Shown here piece by piece: positions 9,299 through 61,815 of a stretch of DNA of 64,000 nucleotides; the first letter of the stretch is position 1, and each line of letters opens with the position of its first letter. The notes under the pieces were generated by a model that did no database searches, was not told the DNA's origin, and saw only the letters and a list, made by a program, of their open reading frames with translations. Source of the stretch: Chloroflexota bacterium. GTDB lineage: Bacteria > Chloroflexota > Anaerolineae > UBA1429. The stretch covers positions 1 to 64,000 of the forward strand of contig JAAYAW010000066.1 of assembly GCA_012719135.1 (NCBI GenBank). Direction: 5' to 3'. The translations under genes and the position numbers were made by a program.

Positions 9299-10549
9299 TT
9301 GAACAGAGTAGTCGTCACTGGCATGGGGGCTGTGTCCCCTTTGGGCAACGATCTCGCCAGCACCTGGGACGGCATCGTGGCCGGGCGTTCGGGTGTTGGC
9401 CCGATTACGCGTTTTGATGCCACAGGCTATCGTACGACCATCGCGGCCGAGGTGCACTCGTTTGATGCCGAAGCGCACTTTCCGGCGAGAGATGTGCGGC
9501 GCATGGACTCTTGCGCTCAATACGCCCTGGTGGCTGCGCGTGAAGCTCTGCGCGATGCGGCCCTCTCCGACGAGGCATTCGCCGACGGGCTAGGCGCGCG
9601 CACGGCCGTAGTGATCGGCTCCGGCATCGGAGGCATGGGAACCGTGACAGAGCAACTCCGCGTGCTCATCGAGCGCGGGCCGGGCAAGGTCAGCCCTTAT
9701 CTCATCCCCATGATCCTGCCAGAGAGCGCAGCCAGCATGGTGGCGATAGAGCATGGGCTGCGAGGGCCCAACATGGCCGTGACCTCCGCCTGCGCGACCG
9801 GCGCCAACGCGATTGGCGAGGGCGTCCAGATGATCCGTCAGGGCCGTGCCGATGTGTGCGTGGCCGGCGGCTCCGAGGCGTCCGTGCTGGAGATCGCCAT
9901 GGCCGGGTTCGGCGCCATGCGAGCCTTGTCTACGCGCAATGAGGATCCCGCTCGTGCCTCCCGTCCCTTTGATCGCGATCGGGATGGCTTTGTGGTCGGA
10001 GAAGGAGCAGGGATTCTCGTTCTGGAGTCGCTGGCGCATGCCCTGGCGAGGGGCGCCACCGTACGCGCGGAGGTGCTGGGCTATGGCACCAATGACGATG
10101 CCTACCACATCACGGCACCAGAGCCCGATGGAGCCGGGGCCACGGCCTGCATGCGGTTGGCGCTCTCCTCGGCCGGGATCGAGCCCGAGCGGGTGGATTA
10201 CGTCAACGCCCATGGGACCAGCACGGTGCTCAACGATATCACCGAGACGAAAGCCATCAAAGCTGTCTTTGGAGAGCACGCTTACCGTCTACCAGTCAGC
10301 TCGACCAAATCCATGACGGGGCATCTGCTGGGCGCCGCCGGAGCGCTTGAGGCGATCCTATGCGTCTGTGCGCTCGAGTCGAGCACTGTGCCGCCCACGA
10401 TGAACTTGGAGCACCCCGACCCTGATTGCGATCTGGATTATGTGCCAGGGCGGGCGCGCCAGGTCGCCATCAGCACGGCACTCTCCAACTCCTTCGGATT
10501 CGGGGGACACAACGTCAGCCTCGTGTTCTCCAGGTACCAGGATGCCTGA
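9299..10549 (+). CDS. fabF: 3-oxoacyl-[ACP] synthase II
   Basis: 416 residues. KAS II has its nucleophile Cys at 165 (TSACATG), catalytic His at 305 (NAHGTST) and 342, and Lys at 337 (KSMTGH). It condenses acyl-ACP with malonyl-ACP during elongation. The start is a TTG preceded by AACAGGAGGAGG; no ATG or GTG in frame gives the family N-terminus NRVVVTGMG. It is divergent from fabK, and the 164-base gap presumably carries both promoters, although no clear consensus pair is visible. fabH follows with an 8-base overlap. Confidence 0.93.
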   Translation: MNRVVVTGMGAVSPLGNDLASTWDGIVAGRSGVGPITRFDATGYRTTIAAEVHSFDAEAHFPARDVRRMDSCAQYALVAAREALRDAALSDEAFADGLGARTAVVIGSGIGGMGTVTEQLRVLIERGPGKVSPYLIPMILPESAASMVAIEHGLRGPNMAVTSACATGANAIGEGVQMIRQGRADVCVAGGSEASVLEIAMAGFGAMRALSTRNEDPARASRPFDRDRDGFVVGEGAGILVLESLAHALARGATVRAEVLGYGTNDDAYHITAPEPDGAGATACMRLALSSAGIEPERVDYVNAHGTSTVLNDITETKAIKAVFGEHAYRLPVSSTKSMTGHLLGAAGALEAILCVCALESSTVPPTMNLEHPDPDCDLDYVPGRARQVAISTALSNSFGFGGHNVSLVFSRYQDA

Positions 10550-11699
10550 ACCCCGCTCAATGGCCGCGATCGTCGGATGGGGGATGTACGTGCCGGAACG
10601 CGTCGTCACCAACGAGGATTTGGCTCAGATGATGGATACGTCCGACGAGTGGATTCGTACGCGGACGGGCATAGAGAGGCGGCACTGGGCCCCGGATCAC
10701 CAGGCAACCGCCTCCATGGCGATCGAGGCCGGACGCCAGGCGCTGGAGGTGGCCGATGCCGATCCGCTCGATATCGGTCTGATCCTCCTGGCGACCATGA
10801 CTCCCGACTACGGAACACCTTCCACCGCTTGCCTGGTGCAGAGCGGCCTGGGGGCGGTCCATGCCGGCGCAGTGGACCTCAATGCCGGATGCTCCGGGTT
10901 CGTGTATGCCCTGACCCTGGCGCACGCCGCCATCGCCTCTGGCCAGGAAGAGATGGTGCTCGTCATCGGCGCGGATACGATGACGAGGATCGTGGACAGG
11001 CAGGACCGTAGCACGGCGGTGCTTTTTGGTGATGGCGCGGGCGCTGTCCTCCTGCGCGCATCCGATGGCGGCGCCGGCGTGCTGGCCACGATTTTGGGCG
11101 CGGACGGCTCTGGTGCCGATCTGCTCAAGGTGCCTGCCGGCGGTAGCGCCTTACCCGCTTCGGCCGAGTCGCTGGCCGCTCGGGAGCACTACCTGACAAT
11201 GGATGGGCACCAGGTGTTCCGTTTTGCCACGCGAGTTCTTCCTCGCGTGATCGAGCGTGTGGCCGAGCGGGCAGGCCTGGAGATCGGCGACATCGACTGG
11301 ATCATTCCTCACCAGGCCAATGCGCGCATCCTGGAGGCGACGGCGAGACGCCTTCGGCTTGATCTGGCGCGCTTTTACACCAACATCCAGGAGTACGGAA
11401 ACACCTCTGCCGCTTCGGTGCCGATCGCCCTGTGCGAGGCAGTCCGCAAGGGCCATGTCATCCCCGGGCAGATCCTGGTCCTCGCCGGCTTTGGCGCCGG
11501 GCTCACCTGGGCGGCTGCGGCCGTCCGCTGGGGTCCTGGCGCTCGCAAGCGGCGCGCCCCCTTCTACCGGCGCTGGTGGCGCTGGATGCTCTATCGCTGG
11601 GCTGCGGCACATAGCGTCGGTCGCCGGCTGTCGCGCCGGCTCTGTGCGAGCAAGCCGCTCGCGTCGCTGCTTTGTCGCCTGCGCCGTCGTCCGCAGTAG
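10542..11699 (+). CDS. fabH: 3-oxoacyl-[ACP] synthase III with Arg-rich C-terminal tail
   Basis: 385 residues from the ATG at 10542 (another ATG at 10560 is possible). The KAS III triad is visible as C117 (LNAGCSGF), H257 (IIPHQANARI) and N287 (GNTSAAS). FabH starts fatty-acid synthesis by condensing an acyl-CoA primer with malonyl-ACP. The normal fold ends near residue 330. Another 55 residues follow, with 17 Arg/Lys and many Trp, Tyr and Leu, which looks like a cationic amphipathic or membrane-contacting tail. No frameshift is needed to produce it. The gene overlaps fabF by 8 bases, implying coupled translation. Confidence 0.9.
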   Translation: MPEPRSMAAIVGWGMYVPERVVTNEDLAQMMDTSDEWIRTRTGIERRHWAPDHQATASMAIEAGRQALEVADADPLDIGLILLATMTPDYGTPSTACLVQSGLGAVHAGAVDLNAGCSGFVYALTLAHAAIASGQEEMVLVIGADTMTRIVDRQDRSTAVLFGDGAGAVLLRASDGGAGVLATILGADGSGADLLKVPAGGSALPASAESLAAREHYLTMDGHQVFRFATRVLPRVIERVAERAGLEIGDIDWIIPHQANARILEATARRLRLDLARFYTNIQEYGNTSAASVPIALCEAVRKGHVIPGQILVLAGFGAGLTWAAAAVRWGPGARKRRAPFYRRWWRWMLYRWAAAHSVGRRLSRRLCASKPLASLLCRLRRRPQ

Positions 11700-11907: not shown

Positions 11908-11936
11908 CCAAACTTTTAACCTTCCTGCCTCGTCTA
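11908..11936 (+). promoter_or_regulatory. ECF-type promoter of the sigma/anti-sigma operon
   Basis: An AAAC-TTTT -35 block (11908-11917) and CGTCTA (11931-11936) are separated by the spacing usual for ECF sigma promoters. The pattern resembles Bacillus SigV/SigW-type promoters. Its position directly before an ECF sigma gene suggests autoregulation. Confidence 0.6.
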
Positions 11937-11975
11937 TACACTGAACGGAGGAAACATGGCATTGGGGGTAAAGCA

Positions 11976-12473
11976 TTGGCCAATCAGCAATTCTACCAGA
12001 GGCTGGCCGCTCATCTCCGAGCGGAGCAGGATCGGCTCTATCGTCTGGCGTTCAGCTATGCGGGAAACGAGCAGGATGCGATGGATATCCTGCAGACCGC
12101 TCTGGTCAAGGCGCTCACGGCTGCTCCTCTTCGGGAGCCGCAGTACTTGGGGACCTGGGTCTACCGCATCGTAGTGAACACCGCGCTGGATTGGCTGCGC
12201 CTTCGCAAGCGGTTCGTGCCCGTTGACGATGGCTATTTTGACGCGGTCCCAGCCACCAGCGAGCGTGCTCCGGGCGAGGATGTGCTGCCACGCGAGGATC
12301 TGAAGCAGGCCCTCGACTCGTTGCCTACCGAGTACAAGACGATCGTCGTTCTGCGCTATTTTGAAGAGCTAAAGCTCCAGGAGGTGGCCGACGTGCTGGA
12401 GCTGAACGTGAACACAGTCAAGACGCGGCTGTATGCCGCTCTGCGGATGCTTCGCCTGGAAATGGAGGTATAG
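11976..12473 (+). CDS. ECF-family RNA polymerase sigma factor
   Basis: 165 residues with sigma region 2 (DRLYRLAFSYAGNEQDAMDILQ, then TWVYRIVVNTALDWLR) and region 4 (LKQALDSLPTEYKTIVVLRYFEELKLQEVADVL, then VNTVKTRLYAAL). It is paired with an RsiV-like anti-sigma gene, so it is likely a SigV-type stress sigma factor. The start is uncertain: TTG at 11976 has SD-like GGGGGT upstream, whereas the strongest SD (GGAGG) points to an ATG at 11956 that is out of frame. An ECF-type promoter lies just upstream. Confidence 0.88.
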   Translation: MANQQFYQRLAAHLRAEQDRLYRLAFSYAGNEQDAMDILQTALVKALTAAPLREPQYLGTWVYRIVVNTALDWLRLRKRFVPVDDGYFDAVPATSERAPGEDVLPREDLKQALDSLPTEYKTIVVLRYFEELKLQEVADVLELNVNTVKTRLYAALRMLRLEMEV

Positions 12474-12476
12474 ATC

Positions 12477-13376
12477 ATGACCAAGGGTATGGATCAACTC
12501 AAGGCTCGCTATGATGCGACTCCTATCCCCTCTCACTTGGCCGCACGAGTGGACGATCTCTGCGAAAGCCACCGGCCCCGGACGAGCGTTTGGAGTGTGC
12601 CCGGATGGCGTTGGGCCCTGGCGACGGCAGCGGGAGCTCTGTTCTTTCTGACCCTTGCGGTGAACGCCCTGCCTGCACAGGCTTCCACGTTGAGCGATAT
12701 TCCGGTGCTTGGGTCCTTGGTCCGAGTGCTCACCTTTGTTGACTATGCTGCCGAAGAAAGCGGCTACGAGGCGCATATTCGCATCGCACGCATCGAGGGT
12801 TTGGAGAATCAACAGCTGGAAGACGCGATCAACGCCGAACTTCTGGCGGATGGGCAGGCCCTCATAGCGCAGTACGAGGCCGATGTCGCCGCACTGCAGG
12901 CGGAGTACGGAGAGGAGACCATCCACAGAGGCGTGGAGACGTACTATGAGATCATGTGCTCGAACGATGAGGTCTTTTCGCTGCGGGTAGAGTATTTCGT
13001 GGCCGCTGGAGGCTCGAACACCAGCTATGACTTTTACAACGTCAACCAGCGGACCGGTGAGCTCATGACTCTGGGTTCTCTTTTCCGCCCGGGCACAGAC
13101 CATCTCGAGGTCATCAACGAGTATCTCCTGGAGCAGATGCGGGCAGCCGTAGATGAGGCCGGACACCCGCTCTATTGGGTCGACGAGACGGACCCGTACG
13201 TGGACGCTTTCGAGGGGATCGAGGCGGACCACGACTTTTACGTCAGTCAGGAGGGCAGACTCGTCATCGCCTTTGACAAGTATGAGGTGGCGCCGGGGTA
13301 CGTCGGCACACCGGAGTTTGTGATCCCGACGGAGTTGATTGAGAGCTTGCTGGCGGAGGGGGTGCCCATCCACTGA
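12477..13376 (+). CDS. RsiV-like membrane anti-sigma factor (DUF3298-type extracytoplasmic domain)
   Basis: 299 residues. A cytoplasmic N-terminal stretch of about 43 residues should bind the sigma factor. One membrane helix follows (about 45-63), then a large outer domain with segments such as TYYEIMCSNDEVFSLRVEYF and DFYNVNQRTGEL, which resemble the DUF3298 part of RsiV. Immediately after the helix is an A-Q-A motif (67-69), a good signal peptidase I site. In Bacillus subtilis, RsiV is cut by signal peptidase when lysozyme binds it. It starts three bases after the sigma stop, with its SD inside the sigma gene. Confidence 0.75.
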   Translation: MTKGMDQLKARYDATPIPSHLAARVDDLCESHRPRTSVWSVPGWRWALATAAGALFFLTLAVNALPAQASTLSDIPVLGSLVRVLTFVDYAAEESGYEAHIRIARIEGLENQQLEDAINAELLADGQALIAQYEADVAALQAEYGEETIHRGVETYYEIMCSNDEVFSLRVEYFVAAGGSNTSYDFYNVNQRTGELMTLGSLFRPGTDHLEVINEYLLEQMRAAVDEAGHPLYWVDETDPYVDAFEGIEADHDFYVSQEGRLVIAFDKYEVAPGYVGTPEFVIPTELIESLLAEGVPIH

Positions 13377-13499: not shown

Positions 13500-13979
13500 C
13501 TATGGCTGGGCGTCGGGGCTTCCCGCCGCTCTGCTGCGCATCAGCAGGCTCCAGGTGCCCTCCTGTACGACCTCTTCCTGCTGATTGAGCACGGTCACCT
13601 GCAGTGTCACCAGTCCGCCGCCCTGGCTTGGCATCGGACGCACGCGGCTCACGGTGCTGGTGAGGCCGATCGTATCCCCAATAAGAATCGGTCTCTTGAA
13701 TCGCCAGTCCAGGCTGGTAAAGGCCATAACGGTGCCTTCCAGGTATCCGGCCTGAGCAGCCAGCCCCGATGCCACGGACAGGCCAAGCAGGCCGTGCGCG
13801 ATGCGCTCGCCGAACGGGGTGGACCGGGCATACTCCGCATCAACATGGAGGGCGTTATAGTCGCCGGAAAGGCCCGCGAACTGAACAATGTCCGCCTCGG
13901 TGATGGTGCGGCGTGGCGAGTCCATTTCCTGGCCCACCTGGAAATCCTCCAGGTACCAGCCCCGGGTCGTGTATGACAT
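13500..13979 (-). CDS. MaoC-like hot-dog fold dehydratase
   Basis: 159 residues. The hydratase 2/MaoC motif is GLSGDYNALHVDAEYA followed by RIAHGLLGLSVASGL, with catalytic Asp and His in the first part. The family hydrates enoyl-CoA or enoyl-ACP thioesters. The ATG at 13979 has the SD AGGAGG, so the slightly longer frame upstream is unlikely. It stands alone between a terminator and the divergent SanA-like gene, so its pathway is not shown by context. Confidence 0.85.
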   Translation of the reverse strand: MSYTTRGWYLEDFQVGQEMDSPRRTITEADIVQFAGLSGDYNALHVDAEYARSTPFGERIAHGLLGLSVASGLAAQAGYLEGTVMAFTSLDWRFKRPILIGDTIGLTSTVSRVRPMPSQGGGLVTLQVTVLNQQEEVVQEGTWSLLMRSRAAGSPDAQP

Positions 13980-14086
13980 GGCAACCTCCTGCACGCGTAA
14001 CGGTTCCCCTGTACTAACACCAGGTCGCCTGGGACGTTGCGTGGCGGCTGGTTACTGCGAGCTTCGTTCGTCGAGCTGTGCGGTGC

Positions 14087-29646: not shown

Positions 29647-30311
29647 GGGCCTGCTTCCGGCTGCTGATGCGGCGTGTGCACGAGCAAGAGTCGCCCCGCC
29701 GAGAGCCACACCCTGGCGTGGCTGGTCAGCAGGACGTTGCTGATTCCCCTGGAGGGGCCAAAGCGCAGCGTCTCGCCCCGCAGTGGGTACTGTAGGCCCT
29801 CGGTGTGTACGCCGATGGCATCGCCTCCCCAGGGGATCAGGCTCACGGTGTCTCCGGGGGAGCCATCGACCTCTGCGCCTGGGCCGACAATCTGAACCGT
29901 GGAGACGCCGTCATATATCCGGACGTTCAGCTCCCGTCCCTCTGGCATGATCAGCAGTGATAGGTTTGCCAGCGTGTGGTCGATCCTTCCTCCCAGGGCG
30001 CCGAGCACGAGGATCTCCCGAGGGCCGCGCGCGAATGCGGAGGCCAGAGCGAGCTCACCATCGGTCTCATCCTTCGAGGCGGGGTAACGTTGGATGCGGC
30101 ATCCCGCCCCCGCCAGCCGCTGCAGCAACTCGGGGCTTACCGAGTCCATGTCGCCCACGATCTCTTGAGGCGTTCGCCCATGGGCATCCAGCCAGTTCGC
30201 ACCGCCGTCGGCGGCAATGACCCAGTCCGCAGAGTCAACCCATTCCAGCAGCCGGGCCTCATGGGTGAACCGGCCGTTGAGCACTACCACAACCCGCTCG
30301 TCGAGAGGCAT
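29643..30311 (-). CDS. thiN: Thiamine pyrophosphokinase
   Basis: 222 residues. Motifs of the TPK family: ADGGANWL, VGDMDSV, YPASKDETDGELAL and GGRIDHTLANL, the last three forming the ATP/thiamine site. It converts thiamine to thiamine diphosphate. First gene behind the TPP riboswitch, so the product feeds back on its own operon. Confidence 0.93.
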   Translation of the reverse strand: MPLDERVVVVLNGRFTHEARLLEWVDSADWVIAADGGANWLDAHGRTPQEIVGDMDSVSPELLQRLAGAGCRIQRYPASKDETDGELALASAFARGPREILVLGALGGRIDHTLANLSLLIMPEGRELNVRIYDGVSTVQIVGPGAEVDGSPGDTVSLIPWGGDAIGVHTEGLQYPLRGETLRFGPSRGISNVLLTSHARVWLSAGRLLLVHTPHQQPEAGP

Positions 30312-30334
30312 ATGTCTCCAGTGCCAGACAGCAA

Positions 30335-30363
30335 GAGCCGCAGACCATAGGGGCCTGCGGCTC
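30335..30363 (-). terminator. Intrinsic terminator of the TPP riboswitch
   Basis: A 9-bp GC-rich stem (GAGCCGCAG/CTGCGGCTC) followed by a T-rich run lies between the riboswitch aptamer and the thiN start. It is the likely expression platform: TPP binding should favour it and stop transcription. Confidence 0.7.
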
Positions 30364-30379
30364 GTATCGCGATCCGTGC

Positions 30380-30457
30380 TTCCCTACGCTGGCATGACCC
30401 AGATCAGGTACAGGGGTCGATGGGCGGCCATCCTCTCAGCCCTTTGGGGCTCCCCCA
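30380..30457 (-). ncRNA. TPP (THI-box) riboswitch
   Basis: The minus strand shows the conserved aptamer blocks in order: the GGGGAGCCCC helix, CTGAGAGG, ACCCCTGTACCTGATCTGG and the closing GCCAGCGTAGGGAA. These match the THI element, and the downstream genes are all thiamine-related. It controls the thiN-to-DUF402 operon. Confidence 0.97.
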
Positions 30458-30477
30458 GCTCATCTTCGGTTGCCTCC

Positions 30478-30506
30478 AGTATATCTGCCCTGGCCCGAGC
30501 GGTCAA
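30478..30506 (-). promoter_or_regulatory. Promoter of the thiamine operon
   Basis: TTGACC, a 17-nt spacer and TATACT on the minus strand, placing the transcription start just before the riboswitch. Confidence 0.75.
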
Positions 30507-30558
30507 GGATCGCCGGTTCGGCTTTAGTCACTGGAGATCTACCGGTAATCGGTGCACG

Positions 30559-30587
30559 TTGACAGCACCCTTATGGTATGTTAGCAT
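30559..30587 (+). promoter_or_regulatory. Promoter of the ftsZ pair
   Basis: TTGACA, a 17-nt spacer and TAGCAT, about 75 bases before the first ftsZ start. It is divergent from the thiamine promoter. The gap 30312-30660 is fully accounted for by the terminator, riboswitch and two promoters. Confidence 0.7.
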
Positions 30588-30660
30588 CCTCCCAATATCC
30601 AGGGGCGTTTGCCGCACGCGATCGTTTGCAGCTCGAATCCGTGTGATGGGGGAGACGGAG

Positions 30661-31731
30661 ATGGACGTGCCAGTGACTGCCGCAGAGAGGCTGCAACGCA
30701 TCAAGGTTATCGGCGTGGGTGGCGGTGGATCGAATGCCGTCAAGCGCATGATCGAAGCCGGCATCGTCGGCGTTGACTTTATCGCCGTCAACACCTCGCT
30801 CAAGGAACTCAAGGGCACTCGCGCGCCCGTACGCCTGCAGATCGGTGAACAGGTCACGCATGGTCTCAGCACCGGTGGAGACGTGTCTCTCGGCACCCAG
30901 GCTGCCGAGGCGGCAACCGAGCAGATCCAGGCCCTGCTGGAGAACACCGACATGGTGTTCATAGCGGCGACGCTCGGGGGCGGCACGGGTACCGGTGCAG
31001 CGCCGGTCATTGCGCGGATCGCCAAGCGCCTGGGTATTCTCACGGTTGCGGTGGTGACGAAACCCTTTGGCTTTGAGGGCTCCCGCAAGACGCGCCTGGC
31101 GGAGACCGGGCTGCAGGCGCTCACGAAGACGGTGGATGCCGAGATTGTGATCTCGAACGACCGGTTGCTCACCCTGGACGTGCGCGATCTCCGGCTGACC
31201 GATGCCTTCCTGCTGGCGGACGAGATGCTGCACCAGTCCGTCCAGACGGTGTGCGACTTTGTGCTCAAGGTCGGCGTCATCAACGTCGATCTGCGCGATG
31301 TGACGGCCATTCTCACAGGCGGCGGCCGGACGATGGTCAACGTCACGCGGGCCAAGGGCGATGATCGTGCGATCGTGGCTGCGCAGGAGGCGGTCATCAG
31401 CCCGCTGCTGGATATCTCCCTTGAGGGCGCCACTGGTCTGCTGCTGAACATCGAGGGGGGAAATCTCTCTATCGGAGAGGTGCACGCCGCTGCGGACCTG
31501 ATCACACGGATGACTTCACCGGATGCGAACATCATCTGGGGCTATGTGGACAACAAGGATCTGGGCGATGAGATCGTCATCACGGTGATCGCCACGGGCT
31601 ATCGGGCCGGGATCGACGGCCAGATCCAGGGGGACACGCCCATCACCCGTGATTCGCCGATTGAGGTGGATCTGGATCACAGGCCCTTTGATCCGCTGGA
31701 TCTGGACGTGCCCACGAGGCTGCGCCGTTAG
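30661..31731 (+). CDS. ftsZ: Cell division protein FtsZ, first paralogue
   Basis: 356 residues. Tubulin-like GTPase with [10 protein letters not shown] near the N-terminus, the GTP-binding GGGTGTG at 106-112 and the T7 loop N208, D210 and D213 ([10 protein letters not shown]), so it should be able to polymerise and hydrolyse GTP. The C-terminal linker is very short and ends [11 protein letters not shown], a degenerate version of the usual partner-binding peptide. The ATG at 30661 follows a GGGGGAGACGGAG SD; an ATG at 30646 is the alternative. The second ftsZ follows at once. Confidence 0.93.
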
Positions 31732-31808
31732 GCCGCTCGCCCGGGCTTGCCAGCGGGCATGGTGCGGCTAGAATGAGGCAAGCTACTGCGGGAACGCGGG
31801 AGGGACCC

Positions 31809-32888
<1,080 letters not shown>

Positions 32889-59666: not shown

Positions 59667-59945
59667 ATGAAGCTCAAAGTTGAGTTCCTTGGGCTGGCGA
59701 GGGAGCTGGCCGGCGATGCCGAAGCGGTTGTGACGGTTGACGACCGCGCCACCTGGCATGACCTTATCTCTGCCTTGGCTGATGCCTACCCCTCCTTCGT
59801 TGGCCCGATAGTTCTCCCCGATCGATCCAATCTGACGGCGGCCTACATGCTGAACGTCGGAGGCCGCGCCATTGTGCGTGACTTGGATGTGCCTGTGCAG
59901 CCGGGGCAGCGCCTGTTGCTCATGTTCGCAGAAGCAGGAGGCTAG
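59667..59945 (+). CDS. MoaD/ThiS-family sulfur carrier
   Basis: 92 residues. The beta-grasp fold starts MKLKVEFLGLARELAG and ends in the GG needed for adenylation and thiocarboxylation. MoaD-type proteins carry sulfur for molybdopterin. Placed four bases before an AOR-family gene, it is likely to supply the tungsto- or molybdopterin cofactor of that enzyme or to regulate it. Confidence 0.88.
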   Translation: MKLKVEFLGLARELAGDAEAVVTVDDRATWHDLISALADAYPSFVGPIVLPDRSNLTAAYMLNVGGRAIVRDLDVPVQPGQRLLLMFAEAGG

Positions 59946-59949
59946 GGAT

Positions 59950-61815
59950 ATGTACGCCTATACCGGCAAGATTCTGCACGTGGATCTCACCAATCAGACC
60001 ACCCGTGTTCAGGAACTGGAGCCGGAGTTTCTGAAACGCTACCTGGGCGGCGTGGGCCTGGCGACACGGCTGCTGTATGACAACACTCCGGCTGGCTGTG
60101 ATCCATTGGGCCCTGATAACGCCCTCTGTTTCGCCTGCTCCTCGTTTGCGGGTACGACGATCCCCGTCGGCACTAAGCATGGCGTGGCCTCCAAGAGTCC
60201 CCTTACGGGCTTTGTTGGTGACTCGCTCTCCGGGAGCCACTTTTCGGAAATGCTCCGGCGCGCCGGCTGGGATGGCATGGTCCTCAAAGGGCAAGCCCCC
60301 CGCTGGCTATACCTCGTCATCGATGACGATCTGGTGCGCTTTGTGGATGCTCAGCCCTACATGGGGAAGGGCGCGGTAGAGGTACAGTCGATCCTGCGCG
60401 AAGAGCTGGGCGATGACAACTACCGGGTCAGCGCGATTGGGCCGGCGGGCGAGCATCTCGTGCGCTTTGCCAGCATCGACAACGACGGGCGGCAGGTCGG
60501 CCGCACCGGCAATGGCGCGGTGATGGGCTCCAAGCGGCTCAAGGCCATCGCGATTCGCGGGTCCCGGCCGGTCACGGTGGCCGATCCCAAAGGCCTCATG
60601 GCGGCGAGTCTCAAGCTGATCAAGACGTCGCAGGGGCCCGGAACGGTCAAGTATCGGACTCTCGGCACGCCTTCCAACGTGCTCAACATGAACGCGATCG
60701 GTGTGTTGCCCACAAGGAATTTCTCTGAGACGACTTTTGAGCACGCCGAGACGATCAGTGGCGAGTACCTGCGCGATCACTACCGCGTAAAATCCGTGAG
60801 TTGCTCCAGTTGTTCAATCGCCTGCGAGCAGTGGGGCGTTGTTCGGGATGGCAAGTACAAGGGCGCCAAGATCGGCCTGGATTACGAGCCGCTCTTTGCG
60901 CTGGGATCCAACTGCGGCATCGGGACGCTGCCCCCCATCATCAAGCTGGTGGAGATGTCCGACGAGTTGGGGATGGATGCCATGAGCGCCGGCGTGGTGA
61001 TCAGCTGGGCGATGGAGTGCTACGAGAGGGGTCTCCTGACTCAGGAAGACTGCGATGGCCTGGAACTGGCGTTTGGCAACGAGGACGCCGCGATCGAGGT
61101 GTTGCGCAAGATAGCCTACCGCGAGGGCATCGGTGATCTCCTCGCCGAGGGGACCATGCGTGCCTCGGAGAGGCTTGCCAAGGGCAGCGAGCACTTTGCT
61201 ATGCACGTCAAGGGTTTGGAAATGCCAGGCTATGACGTACGCAGCCTAAAGACCTTTGCCGCGGGCCTGGCCGTCGGGACCCGGGGCGCCTGCCACAACC
61301 GCTCTCTGGCTTATGAGCTGGACATCAAGGGCGTGTTTGACCGGTTCACGGCCGACGACGGCCGGGGCAAAGCAATGGTGGATAACGAGAACTTTGCCTG
61401 CATCCTCGATTGCCTGGTGCTGTGCAAGTTCCTGCGCAACTGCTTTGATGACTTTGGACCCGATGTCGCCGCCATCTATACGATGACGACGGGCATTTTT
61501 CTGACGGCCGACGAGTTGATGGCCGTCGGGGAACGTGTCTGTAATCTCAAGAAGGCCTTTAACATCCGCGAGGGCTGGACGCGCGCCGACGATACACTCC
61601 CTCCCCGGGTTCTGGAGGATCCCATCCCGACCGGCCCTAGCAAGGGCAGCTACGTTACGCGCGAGGAGCTCGACTTGCTGATCGCGAACTACTATCAGGC
61701 CCGCGGCTGGACGGCCGACGGGCTCATCCCTCGGGAAAAGCTCGTTGAGCTGGGCCTTGAGGACATCGCGGACGAGGTCGGTGTCGATACGGTGCCGGCC
61801 GGGCAGGCCATCTAG
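59950..61815 (+). CDS. Aldehyde:ferredoxin oxidoreductase family protein (tungsten enzyme)
   Basis: 621 residues. The N-terminal AOR domain starts YAYTGKILHVDL with YLGGVGLATRLLYDNTP and GTKHGVASKSPLTG. The 4Fe-4S cluster cysteines are C285, C288 and C292 (CSSCSIAC) and one of C484/C488/C492. The tungstopterin-binding segments follow. Family members oxidise aldehydes with ferredoxin, and BamB of benzoyl-CoA reductase class II also belongs here. The ATG at 59950 is preceded by GGAGG. No aldehyde is implied by context, since the next genes are a polyferredoxin and HdrA. Confidence 0.9.
   Translation: MYAYTGKILHVDLTNQTTRVQELEPEFLKRYLGGVGLATRLLYDNTPAGCDPLGPDNALCFACSSFAGTTIPVGTKHGVASKSPLTGFVGDSLSGSHFSEMLRRAGWDGMVLKGQAPRWLYLVIDDDLVRFVDAQPYMGKGAVEVQSILREELGDDNYRVSAIGPAGEHLVRFASIDNDGRQVGRTGNGAVMGSKRLKAIAIRGSRPVTVADPKGLMAASLKLIKTSQGPGTVKYRTLGTPSNVLNMNAIGVLPTRNFSETTFEHAETISGEYLRDHYRVKSVSCSSCSIACEQWGVVRDGKYKGAKIGLDYEPLFALGSNCGIGTLPPIIKLVEMSDELGMDAMSAGVVISWAMECYERGLLTQEDCDGLELAFGNEDAAIEVLRKIAYREGIGDLLAEGTMRASERLAKGSEHFAMHVKGLEMPGYDVRSLKTFAAGLAVGTRGACHNRSLAYELDIKGVFDRFTADDGRGKAMVDNENFACILDCLVLCKFLRNCFDDFGPDVAAIYTMTTGIFLTADELMAVGERVCNLKKAFNIREGWTRADDTLPPRVLEDPIPTGPSKGSYVTREELDLLIANYYQARGWTADGLIPREKLVELGLEDIADEVGVDTVPAGQAI

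Follow-up and report, generated by a model that had tools for sequence, protein, structure and literature searches.

A SigV-RsiV-type sigma/anti-sigma pair in a Chloroflexota genome, probably acquired from Bacillota

Analysis of a 64,000-nucleotide stretch of a Chloroflexota genome (hereafter the window; contig JAAYAW010000066.1 of assembly GCA_012719135.1) uncovered a two-gene operon that we read, with a probability of roughly three in four, as a SigV-RsiV-type signalling pair that was acquired from Bacillota, is triggered by lysozyme and yields a RIP-released sigma factor acting on its own promoter. The system itself is known; it is the host group that is unusual, and RsiV is rare there. The initial annotation had placed such a gene pair at 11908-13376, and both genes are indeed present: an ECF sigma factor gene (11976-12473) and, behind it, an anti-sigma factor gene (12477-13376), each on the + strand. 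The pair is flanked by fabH (inside 10440-11699, + strand) and, on its 3' side, by a MaoC-like gene on the opposite strand (13500-13994, - strand), both neighbours being named by reading their translations; the operon does not include oatA.

The sigma factor (165 aa, TTG start) contains the Pfam domains Sigma70_r2 and r4_2, and its top NCBIfam match is SigV (NF053879). We call it SigV-like because it scores 172 bits on this curated model and the cut-off is 190. The sigma factors of the three other Chloroflexota copies of the pair also stay below that cut-off (186.2, 168.5 and 177.6 bits), and the one from the Bacillota sister locus, L009, scores lower than the window's (152.6 bits). Among the seven SigV-model matches in its own genome, the window's sigma factor is the best (171.5 bits; the second reaches 80.9). 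Its TTG start at 11976 aligns with the TTG starts in L005 and L003, and a GGGGG run (11964-11968, + strand) is a possible ribosome-binding site, judging from the sequence alone. The ATG at 11956, which stands behind GGAGG, was ruled out as the sigma start, for it lies in another frame. This GGAGG-ATG (11947-11978) opens a frame of 72 aa that overlaps the sigma gene and could damp its translation.

The second gene (12477-13376, + strand, ATG start) encodes an RsiV anti-sigma factor of 299 aa. It passes the NCBIfam RsiV equivalog model NF052658 (258.5 bits against a cut-off of 250) with a match that runs over profile positions 2-281 of 286 and takes in the intracellular and switch parts, and it is the single RsiV match in its genome. 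Pfam found DUF3298 (E 3.9e-16) and PdaC/DUF4163 (1e-6), bearing out the DUF3298-type outer domain that had been proposed, while DUF4179, in which the RsiV switch resides (PMC6066255), reached a sub-threshold 21.5 bits against 30.1. A phmmer search of the PDB returned RsiV from Bacillus subtilis (5jen, E 8.5e-34). Comparison of the predicted outer-domain structure with RsiV, suggested at the outset, gave a clear relationship: an AlphaFold model built from 22 sequences (mean pLDDT 83, with values below 50 at residues 33-46 and at 73-79, the latter in the poorly predicted switch segment) retrieved 5jen_A in Foldseek (E 2.8e-21) and superposed on 5JEN with a VIA Z of 25.7 and 1.7 A over 204 aligned residues. 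The outer domain (residues 79-299; 12711-13373, + strand), composed of DUF4163/PdaC and DUF3298, is thus predicted to have the lysozyme-receptor fold. The window protein is 30% identical to B. subtilis RsiV over the aligned part (69/228 columns).

RsiV from the window has one membrane helix, at residues 47-65 (12615-12671, + strand), where hydropathy is highest; no other stretch of 19 residues exceeds 1.6, and AlphaFold places a helix at 44-64 with low confidence. This helix runs into P66-A67-Q68-A69, of which A67-Q68-A69 (12675-12683, + strand) forms a signal-peptidase-I-type motif, as indicated by the 5jen alignment and by motif counts. A69 is shared by every one of the 22 homologues aligned and lies opposite A64 of B. 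subtilis RsiV, and the window's A-Q-A is therefore two residues closer to the helix than A64-Q65-A66 is in that protein. It occupies the same alignment place as V67-F68-A69 of Clostridioides difficile RsiV, after which that protein is cut (PMC9044953), with A-X-A in the window instead of V-X-A. In the 65 of 81 rows that were scored (16 were not), a small residue at -3 (A, S, G, V, T or C) together with A at -1 was found in 51 at the window's position and in 44 at the B. subtilis position. These results uphold the initial description of one helix followed by A-Q-A, with the position corrected to that of C. difficile, and they support a predicted signal-peptidase-type site in this RsiV. Residues 70-91 (12684-12749, + strand; STLSDIPVLGSLVRVLTFVDYA) would make up the protective segment, with putative DUF4179-type amphipathic helices assigned by alignment to B. 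subtilis and a DUF4179 score below threshold; residues 72-91 align with B. subtilis residues 67-86, which shield the cleavage site (PMC6066255).

An exact sequence match upstream of the sigma gene (11910-11936, + strand) corresponds to an ECF/SigV-type promoter of the pair, with the -35 element AAACTTTT, the -10 element CGTCTA and an AAC-to-CGTC spacing of 17. It can be written as AAAC-N17-CGTCTA, the pattern originally reported, or as AACTTTT-N13-CGTCTAT. AAC-N17-CGTCTAT precedes the sigma gene in each of the four copies from Chloroflexota, although in the copy of the same-genus genome G001 (AACAAAA...CGTCTAT) it comes without the T-rich part, and L009 has the same promoter type with a spacing of 16. 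Across the family, a region from -150 to +90 around the mechanically assigned sigma start contained AAC-N15-18-CGTC at 33 of 47 loci, compared with 13 of 470 letter-shuffled controls, and lacked it at 14 loci. The promoter is thus borne out, and its conservation makes autoregulation of the pair, a trait expected of SigV (ECF30 group), a well-supported prediction.

Bacillus detects lysozyme with such a pair and thereby turns on defences of its cell wall. How the window's pair would work follows from the B. subtilis system (PDB 5JEN), with which it shares the operon order, the single helix with A-X-A, a putative switch segment, the predicted outer-domain fold, S169/P259/Y261 and the predicted autoregulation. 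RsiV would hold the sigma factor at the membrane. A lysozyme, bound in the active-site cleft, is the probable ligand of its outer domain, and this contact would pull the amphipathic segment after A-Q-A off the membrane, whereupon signal peptidase I would cut at A-Q-A and a RasP-type site-2 protease would then cut within the membrane. The freed sigma factor would transcribe its own operon from the AACTTTT/CGTCTA promoter. In C. difficile, RsiV undergoes this two-step proteolysis by signal peptidase and then RasP (PMC9044953), and both enzymes are likewise encoded in the window's genome: a signal peptidase I (159.6 bits) and an RseP/RasP-type M50 site-2 protease (TIGR00054; 150.1 bits for the best part and 239 summed in frame, cut-off 147.55). 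In one relative with the pair, G011, whose assembly consists of about 1010 pieces, the best site-2 protease match stays below the cut-off (20.9 bits). A further role of the RsiV ectodomain could be to inhibit lysozyme, an activity that RsiV of B. subtilis has in vitro (PMC5014341). Overexpression of RsiV left B. subtilis unprotected against 20 ug/ml lysozyme in the experiment described in PMC8287880; that test is confounded, however, because RsiV there also shuts the sigma factor off.

Lysozyme is our best guess for the ligand; the contact residues drift in relatives. Table 2 of PMC5014341 lists 16 lysozyme-contact residues of B. subtilis RsiV, of which eight are identical in the window protein, compared with 69/228 alignment columns overall, and eight differ. 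S169, P259 and Y261, which were mutated in B. subtilis, correspond to identical residues in the window (S180, P273 and Y275), and Y255, G260 and H139 (B. subtilis numbering) are also kept. In the other Chloroflexota copies, H139 is replaced by N and Y261 by S in L007, H139 by P in L008, and S169 by G and Y261 by S in L057, leaving Y261 in two, S169 in three and H139 in two of the four. This drift gives an appreciable, about one-in-three standing to the alternative that the sigma/anti-sigma and proteolytic steps are the same and that the RsiV-type switch has changed its ligand, to another wall-cleaving enzyme (a phage or bacterial muramidase, or a G- or I-type lysozyme of protists) or to a wall fragment. 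The habitat of these genomes, which we take to be anaerobic digesters, has no obvious source of C-type lysozyme and would fit such a change. Against it, the window copy keeps all six of the residues just named, and S169 and Y261 vary across the whole alignment of 82 rows (35 with S and 39 with G at site 169; 53 with Y and 15 with S at site 261), so the drift is not special to the Chloroflexota copies. The two domains need not bring lysozyme binding with them: Rv1980c, which combines DUF4163 and DUF3298, did not bind lysozyme in the tests of PMC5014341. For the lysozyme-triggered pair that we favour, the Chloroflexota copies lead one to ask what lysozyme a free-living bacterium would encounter.

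The output of the pair may differ from that of its known counterparts. The window's genome probably specifies a cell wall, since it has five PF00905 transpeptidase matches, and it encodes two polysaccharide deacetylases. Unlike in the B. subtilis system, with its oatA, no OatA-type acyltransferase over the cut-off was found in this genome (best PF01757, Acyl_transf_3, 17.9 of 31 bits). G001 and G011 also lack an Acyl_transf_3 match over the cut-off, G013 has one, and a weak search with a single distant query found no acyltransferase among the ORFs at 80 rsiV loci. Unlike in C. difficile, where pdaV is a target of CsfV (SigV), no pdaV was seen under the promoter in the window's genome.

A search of this genome with the strict consensus AAC-N17-CGTCTA gave 14 sites, one of them the pair's own and nine inside genes with Pfam support (L101, L109, L113, L121, L125, L140, L141, L143 and L144). 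The remaining four all lack a T-rich -35: one spans the stop codon of a gene for a PEP-utilising enzyme, ~0.3 kb before dnaG (L117), two are located within or opposite ORFs that match nothing in Pfam (L142 and L145) and one falls between two minus-strand ORFs (L105). The pair itself is the only convincing target in this strict search, and the immediate output would for that reason be more sigma factor and more RsiV. The motif is not enriched across four genomes (60 sites, against 107 for the reversed control); the T-rich forms are more frequent than their controls, with 19 against 4 for AACTTTT-N12-14-CGTC and 20 against 8 for AACTTT-N14-CGTCTAT at one mismatch or fewer, though 4 against 6 for the latter in G001. 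Three of these 20 are sigV promoters and one precedes a penicillin-binding protein gene in G011; of the remaining 16, a crude mechanical test assigns 15 to ORFs. The same test also counts the G011 penicillin-binding protein and sigV sites as in-ORF on some strand, and the gap was revealed only by the sequence and Pfam. The window's genome holds five of the 20, four of them inside ORFs. C101:50598 (AACTTTT...CGTCTA) was discarded as a second target, a coding coincidence that encodes residues 195-203 of another ECF sigma factor (210 aa); a similar site in G013 (L166) likewise falls within an ORF of 209 aa.

In G011:C105 (L201 1294-1361) a zero-mismatch site occupies the gap that separates the genes for a polyprenyl synthetase and a class A penicillin-binding protein (Transgly plus Transpeptidase; the contig is cut at the end of the latter gene); by a hand estimate, the size and composition of such a genome would lead one to expect ~0.01 sites of this kind. 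In G013:C4 (L207 2889-2963) AACTCTT-N13-CGTCTA occupies the same gap. The two penicillin-binding proteins are orthologous (64% identity over 398 aa). The ortholog in the window's genome (52% identity) abuts the synthetase gene, and no SigV-type site is found there. These promoters in two relatives point to wall repair as a candidate output, which may have been rewired relative to O-acetylation and which can be tested. Such an output would not be foreign to the system, because SigV of B. subtilis also reaches the penicillin-binding protein PbpX (PMC8287880). In G013:C66 (L200 3473-3500), a one-mismatch SigV-type site, the sixteenth of the set just described and the one outside ORFs by the mechanical test, overlaps a polysaccharide deacetylase gene at its 3' end and precedes a lipoprotein-like ORF without a Pfam match.

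The scarcity of targets in the window's own genome, with no further convincing promoter among its 14 strict sites, would also be expected if the pair were no longer regulated, or had shed its wider output, and set only a basal level of its own expression. We consider this improbable, roughly a one-in-eight matter, because both reading frames are intact in all four Chloroflexota copies, which also keep the cleavage motif, the segment that follows it and the promoter type, because two relatives have an extra promoter target, and because the target search used the strict consensus only.

The pair belongs to its Chloroflexota host. In G001, a genome from the same genus, the genes follow one another in the window's order, FabH-sigV-rsiV-MaoC-ElyC/SanA (L005/L007; names read from the translations), which excludes a stray contig, and the G+C content of the pair (60-63%) lies inside that of the region (60-66%). 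Contamination or mis-binning was thereby ruled out, and the assignment of the host to Chloroflexota is supported. Among 60 genomes (the window's own and 59 relatives), a search for RsiV at E 1e-3 matched five: the own genome, G001, G011, G013 and one fragment of 19.5 bits. The own genome, G011 and G013 exceed the RsiV cut-off, and G001 reaches 238.1 bits; within the family, RsiV is found in the own genome and 3 of 14 relatives. Of 400 genomes from the phylum (the own genome included; G001, G011 and G013 are not among the matches), 14 matched and only the own genome was over the cut-off, the other 13 scoring 19.5 to 129 bits, mostly in the outer domain. In a different family of the same class, G228:C1:2642798-2644472 carries two adjacent DUF3298-type proteins (L087 and L099) with 129 and 128.6 bits to RsiV over profile positions 77 to 278.

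Phylogenies of both proteins, which had been proposed as a check, point to an origin in Bacillota. From a scan of named genomes, 80 of 157 matching loci, nearly all from Bacillota, entered the trees (the other 77 are in no tree); the sigma tree is smaller, since the sigma gene was found by rule in 50 of 81 rows. The RsiV tree places the window beside L007 and L008, both from Chloroflexota, and next to these L009 from 'Bacillota bacterium SUG69' (100/100), while the fourth Chloroflexota copy, L057, sits on a long branch (1.2) among rows from Bacillales and a single one from Atribacterota (97/88). A single Chloroflexota clade was rejected for RsiV (AU p 3.75e-8). The sigma tree also recovers the window with L007, L008 and L009 (100/95), with L008 joining L009 inside; for the sigma factor, neither a single Chloroflexota clade (p 0.122) nor a clade of the window, L007 and L008 without L009 (p 0.194) was rejected. 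As to co-evolution of the two proteins, their trees agree on one four-member clade and branch differently inside it. L009 is the nearest relative of both proteins outside Chloroflexota, and its RsiV is 47% identical to the window's, whereas the G+C content of its locus is 43.5%, compared with about 60-66% around the window's pair. On the simplest reading, the trees suggest transfer from Bacillota to Chloroflexota, at least twice for RsiV, with the direction taken from the make-up of the trees. A Candidatus Atribacteria record (L058 3824-4762) contains an RsiV-like outer domain, with no adjacent sigma gene found by rule.

That the pair is an ordinary ECF sigma factor beside a generic DUF3298 protein, and not RsiV by descent, is very improbable: the domain does occur in other proteins, and the 13 further phylum genomes match below the cut-off, but the window protein matches nearly the full RsiV profile above its cut-off, intracellular and switch parts included, its outer domain resembles RsiV more closely (Z 25.7) than it does the DUF3298 structures 3CYG, 3S5T, 4E72 and MPT64 (2HHI; Z 19.9, 15.3, 14.6 and 5.9), whose records do not call them anti-sigma factors, and the operon, promoter and tree all speak for RsiV.

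RsiV is a bacterial lysozyme receptor that has been studied in depth, and its sigma group has been described as almost confined to Firmicutes (PMC6066255, PMC5014341), and the initial annotation expected a Chloroflexota pair to widen that range. An RsiV pair in Chloroflexota agrees with this expectation, though its novelty is tempered by a 2018 table in which Lewerke and co-workers count 3 sequences with DUF4179, from 2 Chloroflexi species (PMC6066255). In the literature searched, which covers few subscription titles, we found no account of a Chloroflexota SigV-RsiV pair. That the copies are intact and syntenic, and seem to have been gained more than once, suggests a sensor that spreads as a module of two genes and their promoter. 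A more far-reaching scenario, which we regard as rather doubtful, is that the lysozyme switch passed on two or more occasions from Bacillota to a single family of uncultured, wall-bearing Chloroflexota. There it would have been rewired from OatA-type O-acetylation to new wall synthesis, which two of the members would carry out through a class A penicillin-binding protein, whereas in the window's species its output may be only its own anti-sigma factor, shed as a lysozyme inhibitor.

Elsewhere in the window, reading of the translations indicated two adjacent FtsZ-like ORFs (30217-31731 and 31773-32888), and a long ORF at 59872-61815 reads like a tungsten-dependent aldehyde ferredoxin oxidoreductase.
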